Shown in pieces: positions 3,727-60,990 of a DNA stretch of 64,000 nucleotides. Positions within the stretch are counted from its first letter, which is position 1, and each line of letters begins with the position of its first letter. The notes below the pieces were generated by a model. That model was not told the DNA's origin. It worked only from the letters and a program-made list of their open reading frames with translations, and did not search any database. This DNA comes from Pseudomonas subflava (GTDB taxonomy: Bacteria; Pseudomonadota; Gammaproteobacteria; Pseudomonadales; Pseudomonadaceae): positions 124,001-188,000 of the forward strand of contig NZ_JAMXBF010000001.1 of the NCBI RefSeq assembly GCF_023823685.1, read 5' to 3'. A program made the position numbers and the translations under genes.

Positions 3727-3803
<77 letters not shown>

Positions 3804-3809
3804 GCGGCC

Positions 3810-3837
3810 ATTCTACTCAGGGACGGGTTTGTGTCAA
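3810..3837 (-). promoter_or_regulatory. Sigma-70 promoter of tRNA-fMet copy 3
   Basis: On the minus strand a perfect -35 TTGACA and a -10 TAGAAT are separated by 16 bp, with the tRNA 5' end 6 bp beyond the -10 box. The same elements occur before each copy. Confidence 0.8.
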
Positions 3838-3879
3838 TCGATTTTTGCTTTTTAATCAATTAGATAAATCGTAGGCAAG

Positions 3880-3907
3880 AAAAAAGGCCACTCGTTTGAG
3901 TGGCCTT
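3880..3907 (-). terminator. Rho-independent terminator of tRNA-fMet copy 2
   Basis: The inverted repeat AGGCCACTC / GAGTGGCCT with an AAAC loop is followed on the minus strand by a run of six T. It lies just 3' of the tRNA at 3918-3994, so each tRNA is a separate transcription unit. Confidence 0.85.
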
Positions 3908-3917
3908 CTTCTGAATC

Positions 3918-3994
<77 letters not shown>

Positions 3995-4000
3995 GCGGCC

Positions 4001-4028
4001 ATTCTACTCAGGGACGGGTTTGTGTCAA
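4001..4028 (-). promoter_or_regulatory. Sigma-70 promoter of tRNA-fMet copy 2
   Basis: TTGACA, 16 bp, TAGAAT on the minus strand: an exact copy of the promoter 191 bp away. Confidence 0.8.
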
Positions 4029-4070
4029 TCGATTTTTGCTTTTTAATCAATTAGATAAATCGTAGGCAAG

Positions 4071-4098
4071 AAAAAAGGCCACTCGTTTGAGTGGCCTT
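4071..4098 (-). terminator. Rho-independent terminator of tRNA-fMet copy 1
   Basis: The same GGCCACTC stem and T-run as at 3880-3907, placed 3' of the tRNA at 4109-4185. Confidence 0.85.
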
Positions 4099-4108
4099 CT
4101 TCTGAATC

Positions 4109-4185
<77 letters not shown>

Positions 4186-56724: not shown

Positions 56725-56800
56725 GGGTCGTTAGCTCAGTCGGTAGAGCAGTTGGCTTTTAACCAATTGGTCGTAGGTTCGAATCCTACACGACCCACCA
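56725..56800 (+). tRNA. tRNA-Lys (UUU)
   Basis: A 76-nt cloverleaf with encoded CCA: acceptor GGGTCGT pairs with ACGACCC, the anticodon loop is CTTTTAA (UUU), and the T loop is TTCGAAT. This gene after queC is a known insertion site of PAPI-1-type islands in P. aeruginosa. Confidence 0.97.
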
Positions 56801-56821: not shown

Positions 56822-56856
56822 AAAGGCCTGGCCATCGAGAGATGGCCAGGCCTTTT
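56822..56856 (+). terminator. Rho-independent terminator of tRNA-Lys
   Basis: A 14-bp perfect stem AAGGCCTGGCCATC with GAGA loop followed by TTTT. It also faces the convergent lipoprotein gene. Confidence 0.85.
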
Positions 56857-56872: not shown

Positions 56873-57223
56873 TCAGCTACAGGGCGTACCGGCGCTTCCG
56901 GCGAGGGTTTCGACGTTGTCGAGCACCTCCTGGCCCTGGTTGACCTTGCGCATGTTCTCCGCACCCTTAACCGCCTGGGCATAGCTCGAGTCGTTGATGC
57001 CCTGCAGATCCTGGTGGGTCGCCAGCACGTTGTTGGTGATTGCCAGCAGGTTGCGCCCCGTGGCGATCAGGTCACTGGTGGCCCCGGGCGTGCACGGCGA
57101 AGTCCCGGCATCCGCCAGCTGGTTTCCGGCGCCGAGCCGGTGCTGGCCATTCGGCGCCGCGCAGCCGGCCAGGGCGAACAGAAGGGGCAAAGCGAGCAGT
57201 GCAGCGGTGCCTGTGAGTTTCAT
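56873..57223 (-). CDS. Small hypothetical lipoprotein
   Basis: A 116-residue predicted lipoprotein: LLALPLLFALAGCAAPN supplies a lipobox (lipidated Cys near 21). The mature part is hydrophilic, with TSPCTPGATSDLIATGRNLL and a cysteine next to the C-terminus (TPCS), which could form a disulfide with the earlier one. I do not recognise the family. It starts with ATG at 57221-57223 and ends close to the tRNA-Lys terminator. Its location between tRNA-Lys and a two-component pair marks it as accessory relative to P. aeruginosa. Confidence 0.6.
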   Translation of the reverse strand: MKLTGTAALLALPLLFALAGCAAPNGQHRLGAGNQLADAGTSPCTPGATSDLIATGRNLLAITNNVLATHQDLQGINDSSYAQAVKGAENMRKVNQGQEVLDNVETLAGSAGTPCS

Positions 57224-57431
57224 GTTCTTGTCCTTCGCAGAGCGGTCGGGGGCGGCGGAACGGCTCGCCAGGGGAGTTCGGCCAGTCTAGGAATCCCGCC
57301 GGGTCTCATGAATAGGCCTGCTGTACTAGGTCATTTGCGCTACTGTGCGCTCGCCGTTTTTCTGGTAGATGCCCTTACAGAGGTCGTGGCCGTGCGGATG
57401 CCACGACTTTTCGGGCCGATCGGGGGACTGA

Positions 57432-59072
57432 ATGAAGACTGGGGTGAACAAGGGCTACGACACGGAGCGCAGCCAGGCCTGGGTGCGTCTGCTGGTGTCG
57501 GGTGCGGCGATGGTCTACGTGCTGACGGTGTTTCTCACCGCCCGCTCCACGTCCGGCGCCATCGAGCTGATCCTCCATTACATCCCGGTGTTCATGGCCG
57601 TATCGGTGGTGCTGCTGGTCGACATCATCCGTCGTCCGGGTGTGCGGCCGCTGCGGCGGGTGATGGCCATGGCGCTGGATTACGTGTCCATTGCCGTGTG
57701 CATGTACCTCGGTGGTGAGGCCCTGCTGCCGGTGTATGGCGCCATCCTCTGGGTCACGGTGGGCAACGGCGTGCGCTATGGCCCGCGTTACCTGGCGATT
57801 GCCACGGCGATGGCGCTGATCTGCCTGCTGGCCCTCGCGCAATTCTCGCCCTATTGGCGCAGCCAGCCGTATCTGGCGATCACCCTGGTCATCGCCACGC
57901 TGGTGGTGCCCGCCTATGTGAACACCCTGCTGGCCCAGAGCCGGCGAGCCAACGAGGCGGAGCACGCCGCCAACCAGGCCAAGTCGCAGTTCCTCGCCCA
58001 GGCCAGCCACGACCTGCGCCAGCCCATCCATTCCATCGGCCTGTTCACCGCCTGCCTGCGCGACGGCAACCTGGAGCCGGCGCAGCGGCAGATGGTCGAT
58101 AGCATCGACAAGTCGCTGCACAGCGTGGCGCAGCTGTTTCGCTCGATCCTCGACATGTACACCCAGGACGGCGGGCGGGTGACGCCGCGCGCGGAGGCGG
58201 TGGCGCTCGACGAGCTGCTGCAGGGCATCGCGCAACAGAATGCCGAAGCCGCGCGCTGGGCCGGCGTCGACATCCGGGTGCATGCGCCGCACCAGCGGGT
58301 GCTGGTCGACCCTGGCCTGCTGACCACCATGGTGCAGAACCTGCTCTCCAACGCGCTGAAGTACGCCGCGGGCCATCCGGTGCTGGTCGGTTGCCGGCGC
58401 CGTGGCGGCGGCTTCGCCATCGAGGTCTACGACAAGGGGCGGGGCATCGAGCCGCAGCACCTGGCCAGCGTGTTCGACGAGTTCTACCGGGTGCGCGAGG
58501 TACGTGACAACGACATCGAGGGCGTCGGCCTGGGCCTGGCCATCATCCGTCGCCTGGCGAATCTGATGGGGCTGCAGGTGCGCATGCGGTCCCGGGTCGG
58601 ACGGGGCACCTCGGTGGCGATCGAGGGGCTGGTCGCGGTGCGCGCGGAGGTCAGCTCGCCGGTAGCCGCGCTGCGCCAGTCTTCGACCACGCCGCGCATG
58701 CTCGACGGCCTGCGCGTGAGCCTGATCGAAGACGACCGCAGCGTGCTGCTCGCGACCGCGACCCTGCTGCGCAAATGGGGCTGCGAGGTGCAGGCCAGCC
58801 CGTCGATTCCGGTAGAGGGGCATGGCGATATCGATCTGGTCATCACCGATTTCGACCTGGGGCGCGAGGCTTCGGGGGCCGACTGCATTCGATATCTGCG
58901 CGAGCTGAGCGGCCGGCACATTCCGGCGGTGGTGATCACCGGCCACGAGGTCAAGCGGGTTCGGGAGGCGGTCGGCGATGCGGATATTCCGGTGCTATCC
59001 AAGCCGCTCCATCCGGCTGAGCTGCGCTCCACGCTGGTGGCGCTGAAGAGGGGGCTGGCGCAAGGTGCCTAG
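57432..59072 (+). CDS. Hybrid sensor kinase with RpfC-like membrane sensor
   Basis: A 546-residue protein. Residues 1-165 contain five or six predicted helices (about 17-38, 48-66, 78-95, 98-113, 118-138, 147-165) with a WVTVGNGVRYGPRYLAIA segment typical of RpfC-type sensors. A HisKA domain follows with His 193 in QASHDLRQPIHSIG, HATPase (about 290-410) with NLLSNALKY and GVGLGLAIIRR, and a C-terminal receiver (about 425-540) with the acceptor aspartate in LVITDFDLG. No Hpt domain is seen. The arrangement resembles P. aeruginosa PA1396, linked to DSF-signal responses, but the ligand here is unknown. Its stop overlaps the opposite response-regulator stop by 4 bp. Confidence 0.82.
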   Translation: MKTGVNKGYDTERSQAWVRLLVSGAAMVYVLTVFLTARSTSGAIELILHYIPVFMAVSVVLLVDIIRRPGVRPLRRVMAMALDYVSIAVCMYLGGEALLPVYGAILWVTVGNGVRYGPRYLAIATAMALICLLALAQFSPYWRSQPYLAITLVIATLVVPAYVNTLLAQSRRANEAEHAANQAKSQFLAQASHDLRQPIHSIGLFTACLRDGNLEPAQRQMVDSIDKSLHSVAQLFRSILDMYTQDGGRVTPRAEAVALDELLQGIAQQNAEAARWAGVDIRVHAPHQRVLVDPGLLTTMVQNLLSNALKYAAGHPVLVGCRRRGGGFAIEVYDKGRGIEPQHLASVFDEFYRVREVRDNDIEGVGLGLAIIRRLANLMGLQVRMRSRVGRGTSVAIEGLVAVRAEVSSPVAALRQSSTTPRMLDGLRVSLIEDDRSVLLATATLLRKWGCEVQASPSIPVEGHGDIDLVITDFDLGREASGADCIRYLRELSGRHIPAVVITGHEVKRVREAVGDADIPVLSKPLHPAELRSTLVALKRGLAQGA

Positions 59073-59689
59073 ATGCCGAACTTGGCGGCGATGGCGGCGG
59101 CCGCGGCCCGGGAGCCGACGTTGAGCACGCGCAGCAGCGACGAAACGTGGATGCGCACGGTGAAGGGCGAGATGGCCAGCTGGCGGGCGATTTCCTTGTT
59201 GGACAGGCCCCGGGCGATCAGGCGCAGCACGTCCTGCTGGCGCGGGGTGAGCTGATCCAGCCCATTGTCATGAGGCAGGGCGGTGGGGCCGACGGTGACC
59301 ACGAAGTCGCCGGCGCGAATCGCCAGAATCGCCTCGGCCATATCGTCCGGCGGTACCGACTTGCCGATGAAGCCGTCCGCGCCTGCGGCCATGGCCTCGT
59401 CGATCAGGGCGCGGTTGTCGACCATCGAGACGATGACGATCGAGCAGCGCTTGAACTCCTGGCGCAACGCGCCGATGGCTTCCGAAGACTGGCCGGGGAA
59501 GAGCAGGTCGAGGATCAGCAGCGTCGGTGGCACGCCCTGCCTGGCCAGCTCCAGGACGGCGTCCATGTCGCCGGCCTCGTCGATCTCAGCGTGCGGCATG
59601 ATGCGTTGAACGATGCGGGCCAGGCCATCCCTGAACACGGGGTGGTCGTCGGCAACTATCACGCGTTCCTGATGGTGTTCTGCAGGCAT
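59069..59689 (-). CDS. LuxR/NarL-family response regulator
   Basis: A 206-residue regulator: receiver with acidic pair VADDHPVFRDGL, phospho-acceptor Asp 61 in LLILDLLFPGQ, and lysine in GADGFIGKSVPPDD; then a LuxR-type helix-turn-helix (about 145-200) with LTPRQQDVLRLIARGLSNKEIARQLAIS. It lies tail to tail with the hybrid kinase, sharing 4 bp at the stops, and is its likely partner; the kinase's own receiver could compete for phosphate. Targets are unknown. The 242-bp gap to nadA contains only the nadA -10 box that I can see. Confidence 0.85.
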   Translation of the reverse strand: MPAEHHQERVIVADDHPVFRDGLARIVQRIMPHAEIDEAGDMDAVLELARQGVPPTLLILDLLFPGQSSEAIGALRQEFKRCSIVIVSMVDNRALIDEAMAAGADGFIGKSVPPDDMAEAILAIRAGDFVVTVGPTALPHDNGLDQLTPRQQDVLRLIARGLSNKEIARQLAISPFTVRIHVSSLLRVLNVGSRAAAAAIAAKFGI

Positions 59690-59891
59690 CCGCTTGATCT
59701 TGTGTGGTTATCGGTGGAGCGAGTCCGCGGTGGAACAGAGACTACGGGCTTATGGCGGACGATGACAGCGCGCGGTTCGCACTCCTGACCGGCTGATCGC
59801 GTCGATGGCCGGATTCACAATGCGTCGAGCCGATCGTCCCGCCATCGCGCACGCGGCTGCAACCGCGATGCCACAGGCCGAGGGCGGTGCG

Positions 59892-59897
59892 TATAAT
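59892..59897 (+). promoter_or_regulatory. nadA -10 box
   Basis: Perfect TATAAT 35 bp before the nadA ATG. No convincing -35 box lies 16-18 bp upstream. Confidence 0.5.
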
Positions 59898-59931
59898 CGC
59901 CGCACTGAAAGCATATTCAGAGCCTGATGAC

Positions 59932-60990
59932 ATGACCCAGATTTCCGAGCGCCTGCTGGTCCAGGCCCACCTCGCCGCCAAGCAGCCCAAGCCGCTGACC
60001 GCCGACGAGGAAGCCTTTTACCGCAGCGAGATCGCCGCCGAGCTGAAGAAGCAGAATGCCGTGCTGGTGGCCCATTACTACTGCGATCCGGTGATCCAGG
60101 CGCTGGCCGAAGAAACCGGCGGCTGCGTCTCCGACTCCCTGGAGATGGCCCGCTTCGGCAACCAGCACGAGGCGCAGACCGTGGTGGTGGCCGGGGTCAA
60201 GTTCATGGGCGAGACGGCGAAGATCCTCAACCCGGAAAAGCGCGTGCTGATGCCGACCCTGGAGGCCACCTGTTCGCTCGACCTGGGTTGCCCGGTGGAT
60301 GAGTTCTCGGCCTTCTGCGACCAGCACCCGGACCGCACCGTGGTGGTGTATGCCAACACCTCGGCAGCGGTGAAGGCGCGCGCCGACTGGGTCGTGACAT
60401 CCAGCTGCGCGCTGGAGATCGTCGAGAGCCTGATGGATAACGGCGAGAAGATCCTCTGGGCGCCGGACCAGCACCTGGGGCGCTACGTCCAGCGCGAAAC
60501 GGGCGCCGACATGCTGCTGTGGGACGGCGCCTGCATCGTCCACGAGGAGTTCAAGGCCAAGCAGCTGGAAGACATGAAGGCGCTGCATCCGGAGGCCGCC
60601 ATCCTGGTCCATCCGGAGTCGCCCGAGGCGGTGATCGAGCTGGCCGACGCGGTGGGCTCCACCAGCCAGCTGATCAAGGCGGCGCAAACCCTGCCGAACA
60701 AGACCTTCATCGTCGCCACCGACCGCGGCATCTTCTACAAGATGCAGCAGCTGTGCCCGGACAAGGTCTTCGTCGAGGCGCCCACCGCCGGCAACGGCGC
60801 CGCCTGTCGCAGCTGTGCCCACTGCCCGTGGATGGCCATGAACACCCTGCAGCGCACCCTGCAGTGCCTGCGCGAGGGCAGCAACGAGATCCTCGTCGAG
60901 CCGGCGCTGATCCCGCGAGCGATCAAGCCGCTCAAGCGCATGCTGGACTTCACCCAGGAGGCGCGGCTGAAGTTGGCCGGCAACGCCTGA
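59932..60990 (+). CDS. nadA: Quinolinate synthase
   Basis: A 352-residue 4Fe-4S enzyme that condenses iminoaspartate with dihydroxyacetone phosphate in NAD synthesis. The three cluster cysteines fall in [23 protein letters not shown] and [33 protein letters not shown] and [14 protein letters not shown] are typical. The ATG at 59932 ([11 protein letters not shown]) is chosen; the frame is open 15 codons further but across the -10 box. A terminator follows, convergent with bepA. Confidence 0.95.

Follow-up and report, generated by a model that had tools for sequence, protein, structure and literature searches.

A lipoprotein, sensor kinase and response regulator cassette between tRNA-Lys and nadA in Pseudomonas subflava, related to the PA1396/PA1397 pair

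The interval between tRNA-Lys and nadA in the window, the 64,000-nucleotide stretch of Pseudomonas subflava DNA analysed here, holds a three-gene cassette of a membrane sensor kinase, a DNA-binding regulator and a small lipoprotein (Table 1). Judged from sequence, the cassette is a cousin, not an equivalent, of the P. aeruginosa DSF sensor pair PA1396/PA1397. The locus probably acts as a local, autoregulated two-component cassette linking a signal from the membrane or envelope to the lipoprotein, and the interval in which it lies is a variable insertion site.

Table 1. Features of the tRNA-Lys/nadA interval, in window coordinates.
Feature	Position	Strand	Basis
tRNA-Lys(TTT), left border of the insertion interval	56725..56800	+	ARAGORN
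Terminator-like stem-loop between tRNA-Lys and the lipoprotein gene: perfect 15-bp inverted repeat followed by T's	56822..56855		Repeat search and sequence
Small lipoprotein gene, 116 aa, lipobox LAGC, Cys21	56873..57223	-	ORF; homologues in other cassettes
Predicted operator: degenerate repeat copy TAGGCCTGCTGTACTA, 2 mismatches	57313..57328		Alignment of 8 intergenic regions
Hybrid histidine kinase, 546 aa	57432..59072	+	ORF and Pfam
NarL/LuxR-type response regulator, 206 aa	59069..59689	-	ORF and Pfam
nadA, right border of the insertion interval (longest ORF; alignments suggest a start further in)	59887..60990	+	Longest ORF

Composition of the cassette

The kinase and regulator genes lie tail to tail, and their stop codons overlap by 4 bp (CTAG, positions 59069-59072). 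An earlier note on this DNA had described a two-gene unit, a kinase and a LuxR-type regulator sharing 4 bp at the stop within the tRNA-Lys to nadA segment. Both open reading frames, the overlap and both flanks were found as described, but the third gene, encoding the lipoprotein, and the operator-like site had been missed.

The HisKA-HATPase-receiver order read from the kinase holds, with all three domains above Pfam cut-offs (HisKA 183-247, HATPase_c 293-397, receiver 429-534). No Hpt domain was found in the window kinase with Pfam. The phospho-accepting residues are intact (His193 of the kinase, Asp473 or Asp475 of its receiver, Asp61 of the regulator), as are all catalytic residues. The regulator consists of a receiver and a GerE helix-turn-helix domain (145-201), both above Pfam cut-offs, which together with Asp61 place it among NarL/LuxR response regulators. 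The best NCBIfam match of the kinase/receiver core was the NahK/ErcS-type hybrid kinase model NF041832, at 283 bits and below the 400-bit cut-off; the window kinase differs from this type in having a membrane sensor before the core.

The window lipoprotein had no Pfam or NCBIfam match. In six further cassettes that were aligned, homologues 46-54% identical hold the corresponding position, and regulator homologues (68-71% identical) lie tail to tail with the kinase in other cassettes. The lipoprotein-kinase-regulator cassette was present in all nine sampled genomes with the window's kinase clade, and in the eight other carriers match coordinates place it away from nadA. A profile search detected the lipoprotein in 16 of 298 genus genomes; these included all nine kinase-clade genomes, where the gene is always beside the kinase (and split into two pieces in genome G163). 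In the remaining seven genomes it lies apart from any such kinase match, and five of these regions were fetched (L144-L148), with no kinase of the cassette type within the stretch. Genes labelled by eye near these kinase-less loci include Lrp-type regulators and flavin-dependent monooxygenase-like genes. G163 carries two tandem copies of the cassette kinase (L094, C1:111000-120000) and a third, orphan copy (L095, C1:4461000-4469000), which has no adjoining regulator and keeps the family repeat described below with 1 mismatch.

Relationship of the sensor to RpfC and PA1396

By sequence comparison, the window sensor is a genuine relative within the RpfC/PA1396 five-helix superfamily; the name "five-helix" follows PMC6536496. 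The sensor is colinear with the superfamily, and the GNG-RYG-RYL and P-x-Y motifs are present. The multi-helix N-terminus with GNGVRYGPRYL reported earlier was confirmed, the structure model of the sensor being all-helical (mean pLDDT 77). No solved structure matched the model at an E-value of 0.001 or better. Pfam gave no match over cut-off for the sensor part, only DUF2070 below cut-off (E 0.37), and no 7TMR or MASE model was matched, the families with which, according to the earlier note, a grouping would refute its assignment.

The sensor was found in 67 of 274 gammaproteobacterial genomes by an alignment-based search, with many matches on proteins of ~800-950 aa. Two such large-protein loci checked by Pfam were RpfC-type (HisKA, HATPase, receiver, HPt) with an adjoining enoyl-CoA-hydratase-type synthase, and an HD-GYP regulator was also checked in one of them. 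The sensor of RpfC, encoded in rpfG-rpfC/rpfF clusters, is homologous to that of the window kinase, but the proteins differ in other respects. RpfC-type proteins of rpf loci are ~850 aa long with HPt (two references), whereas the window kinase has 546 aa and lacks HPt. RpfC is flanked by an HD-GYP regulator (rpfG) and an enoyl-CoA-hydratase-type synthase (rpfF), and the window kinase by the lipoprotein, the regulator and nadA. The rpfC-cluster kinases separate in the sensor tree (100/99), and the family repeat was absent from 20 rpfC-type loci (206 kb). In one rpf cluster (L190, 4492-5634), an RpfC-type sensor fused to GGDEF (381 aa) is encoded by a gene with the HD-GYP regulator on one side and the RpfC-type kinase on the other. 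A scan of viral contigs with a PA1396-like kinase revealed no relative.

Trees were inferred from full-length kinases (57 rows) and from the sensor only (67 rows, i.e., 78 minus eleven near-duplicate kinase rows). In both, PA1396-like kinases form their own clade (100/100 for full length and 100/99 for the sensor), and the window kinase stands outside it, still within the RpfC/PA1396 superfamily. The group holding the window kinase received support of 95/83 with full-length sequences and 82/63 with the sensor only, a value that makes the kinase's own placement, on a long branch, less firm.

PA1396 was recognised in P. aeruginosa record NZ_CP131792.1, where the kinase agrees with the published protein at 33 of 33 residues. 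In this record the regulator is divergent from PA1396 (head to head), in contrast to the convergent genes with a 4-bp overlap in the window. The tail-to-tail order, which the earlier note had likened to PA1396/PA1397, is common in the window's own kinase clade and also occurs in several alphaproteobacterial relatives. The claimed likeness to this pair survives as to sensor family and domain order; it fails as to clade and gene order, and both trees and gene order rule out orthology of the window pair with PA1396/PA1397. The two pairs share the HisKA-HATPase-receiver order without HPt and the regulator class, their kinases are 50% identical over the full length, and the strict family repeat occurs near the P. 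aeruginosa pair too. They differ in their small-gene neighbours and in the repeat, which is degenerate in the window. Record NZ_CP131792.1 (L218; 847 kb) is filed as a P. aeruginosa plasmid and has nadA, pqs and PA1396-type chromosomal genes together with conjugative-element genes; it is therefore probably chromosomal or a fusion.

PA1396 has been studied as a route by which P. aeruginosa eavesdrops on its neighbours, and PMC6536496 lists PA1396 residues tested in helices IV-V. Eleven of 17 experimentally tested residues from that list are identical in the window kinase in an ungapped alignment with register +4. At this register 16 of 26 positions match, and eleven other registers gave at most 4 each. 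The conserved N-terminal glutamate is kept (PA1396 Glu8, window Glu12), and the triad T121/L123/L128, reported there as DSF-blind in PA1396, corresponds to T125/M127/L132. With most of the residues that PA1396 requires preserved, the window kinase could be a dedicated sensor of foreign DSF-family cis-2-unsaturated fatty acids, with DSF inserting beside helices IV-V and activating the kinase. A search of the genome gave no clear RpfF-type DSF synthase (best match 35% over 154 residues), which also speaks for this reading. We nevertheless consider this rather unlikely: the window kinase belongs to a clade distinct from that of PA1396, and the majority of these positions are conserved throughout the sensor family, untested members included, so that they may reflect the sensor fold rather than the ligand.

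The tRNA-Lys/nadA interval

The gene nadA was found in 293 genomes, and 40 regions with 8 kb upstream were fetched, mostly from the closest relatives. The interval was measurable in 31 of them; 27 have a spacer of 58-331 bp and the other four one of 1.5-2.8 kb, compared with 3087 bp in the window. The closest relative that could be used, with a 98% identical nadA, has 78 bp between tRNA-Lys and the nadA match. No tRNA was located in the other nine regions, where, among the matches listed and labelled by eye, nadA was adjoined by giant adhesin, RND efflux and catabolic genes.

The earlier note had stated that PQS genes sit at this site in PAO1, and in the P. aeruginosa record NZ_CP131792.1 mvfR-phnBA-pqsEDCBA do lie directly upstream of nadA. 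It had gone on to suggest that one quorum-sensing locus may be absent here and a foreign-signal sensor present at the same site. On a stronger reading, the cassette would have replaced PQS there and serve as another module for signalling between cells. A PqsC search of the window's genome gave no match, and KAS III C-terminal domains had only three scattered matches, each on a different contig. However, among 298 sampled genus genomes the best listed PqsC match by E-value was only 31% identical, so that lack of PQS is the rule and its absence here is ordinary. Together with the 27 of 31 measurable relatives that have only a short spacer and the unrelated cargo of further species, this makes replacement highly improbable. 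The interval contents look like an independent insertion, and the idea of a quorum-system swap is corrected to that of a variable insertion site.

A tyrosine-recombinase island at tRNA-Lys was also considered and rejected: the window contains no further same-strand copy of the tRNA 3' end of at least 10 bp, the only match being one of 10 bp on the reverse strand, and no integrase ORF was recognised in the interval. Elsewhere in the window (3727-4185), three tandem tRNA-Met(CAT) genes occur with 191-bp spacing.

The inverted repeat and the genes beside it

Alignment of 8 lipoprotein/kinase intergenic regions revealed an inverted repeat, TAGTAC-N4-GTACTA, whose strict form was counted as TAGNACNNNNGTNCTA. 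Across the 49 family loci the strict repeat was counted 42 times, with at least one site in 32 of them, versus none in 40 background loci (363 kb), counts to be read with the reservation that the motif was drawn from cassette loci included in these sets and that family loci share ancestry, so the sites are not independent. By set, there were 7 sites in 9 cassette loci (7 loci with a site), 26 in 32 other Pseudomonas family loci (21 loci) and 9 in 8 alphaproteobacterial loci (4 loci). A reversed control pattern was absent from the family, background (363 kb) and rpfC-type (206 kb) loci. The only test outside the motif-defining loci was a held-out set of 12 loci from plasmid records, for which 13 of the best 20 kinase matches were fetched; it contained 5 strict sites in 4 loci, versus a shuffled mean of 0.03 and maximum of 1, the matches in L215 and L216 being known before the count. 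All five lipoprotein genes fetched from genomes without the cassette keep the strict repeat 89-90 bp upstream.

Genome-wide numbers of the strict pattern were near chance, with 0-5 occurrences of the control pattern per genome, so the informative signal is co-location. The cassette site is the sole strict site of the genome in G062, G119, G176 and G201. When up to 1 mismatch was allowed, it was the sole genome match in G062, G119, G176 and G247 and one of 2-3 matches in G001, G163 and G201; the site of G146 needs 2 mismatches, and G000 has none at up to 1 mismatch. The window copy has a degenerate left half and falls outside the strict set. It is the only site with at most 3 mismatches in the 64-kb window, compared to 7.4 in mononucleotide shuffles. 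With one half degenerate, the operator may be weak or lost here.

The putative rule joining operator and lipoprotein was not found in the literature searched: among the sources listed on PA1396/PA1397, RpfC, CrbR/ErdR and two-component DAP-seq, none showed either the operator or the lipoprotein link. A DAP-seq study of P. aeruginosa response regulators reportedly exists and may contain a PA1397 motif. The ErdR/CrbR ACTU motif is a candidate source of the repeat, and the accessible part of PMC8402216 gives no sequence for it.

The homology, gene order, domain residues, cassette recurrence and site conservation are direct observations, and the following scheme would explain how the cassette operates. 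The five-helix inner-membrane sensor would detect a membrane-soluble or envelope-derived cue, upon which the kinase would autophosphorylate at His193. The phosphate would pass to Asp61 of the regulator, either directly or via an HPt protein encoded elsewhere, a route considered because the kinase has no HPt domain. PMC4504480 describes an orphan HPt protein as the intermediary in PA1396 signalling, evidence that speaks against direct phosphotransfer. The receiver within the kinase probably modulates the phosphate flow or draws phosphate off. Once phosphorylated, the regulator is predicted to bind the inverted repeat (consensus TAGTACA-N2-TGTACTA) that lies between the lipoprotein gene and the oppositely oriented kinase gene, and would set the expression of the lipoprotein, presumed to be the main local output, and of the kinase, more probably by activation than by repression.

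In Pseudomonas family loci, 27 of 33 strict sites had a predicted lipoprotein start within 300 bp, versus 46 of 1454 positions drawn at random from those loci. The corresponding values were 2/9 in alphaproteobacteria, 5/5 in lipoprotein-only loci and 0/5 in held-out loci, giving 34 of 52 sites for the four sets together under the wider lipobox rule. The held-out loci thus failed to reproduce the lipoprotein association, which counts against the scheme. An earlier, narrower rule, widened after missed LNGC-type lipoboxes were noticed, had given 31 of 47 sites plus 2 double-glycine peptides versus 49 of 800 background positions. The lipoproteins beside the repeat fall into six groups by BLAST, one scoring over the YecR cut-off and one BamE-like below cut-off. 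A strict site in NZ_CP131792.1 precedes a gene annotated as hypothetical by ~0.1 kb; behind that gene comes another that looks lipoprotein-like by eye and has no Pfam match. Outside Pseudomonas, a Rhizobium site lies upstream of a double-glycine peptide gene annotated as bacteriocin, accompanied by a peptidase-domain exporter, and a Paracoccus site precedes an HlyD-type adaptor gene (by eye); further sites precede regulator genes. Autotransporters were found near enterobacterial kinase/regulator pairs.

Among these neighbours in relatives, the envelope or secretion genes (YecR and BamE-like lipoproteins, bacteriocin with exporter, HlyD-type adaptor), together with the enterobacterial autotransporters, are consistent with a sensor of envelope stress or competition. 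Its cue would be the membrane state or a bacteriocin-like peptide, and the lipoprotein would protect the envelope or feed back on the sensor. We regard this as possible, though short of likely, since the window cassette itself has no exporter or peptide gene and its lipoprotein belongs to no known family.

We tentatively propose that PA1396-type sensors are a widespread family distinct from RpfC quorum receptors, whose NarL-type regulators share the operator TAGYACA-N2-TGTRCTA and act mainly on the adjoining gene, which would be a small envelope lipoprotein in Pseudomonas and a secretion, autotransporter or bacteriocin gene elsewhere. Such a family would form a transferable module for envelope surveillance or competition. 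If so, the DSF response that P. aeruginosa mounts via PA1396 would be a particular instance of it, and the direct target would be predicted to lie next to the pair. According to PMC6536496, its results are hard to reconcile with a simple scheme in which PA1397 controls pmr genes directly. The common operator and the recurrent adjoining lipoprotein would offer a concrete prediction for the whole family, P. aeruginosa included.

Several loci are of separate interest. On a plasmid of Rhizobium sp. L51/94 (L217, 10026-13804), a PA1396-family pair is found together with the annotated bacteriocin, a peptidase-domain ABC exporter and an HlyD adaptor; copies of the family repeat precede the bacteriocin gene and occur near the adaptor gene as well. 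Short peptides with double-glycine leaders, possible microcins, are encoded near Pseudomonas PA1396-family kinases in L110 (4205-4426 and 12528-12740) and L120 (1793-2005 and 2424-2645).
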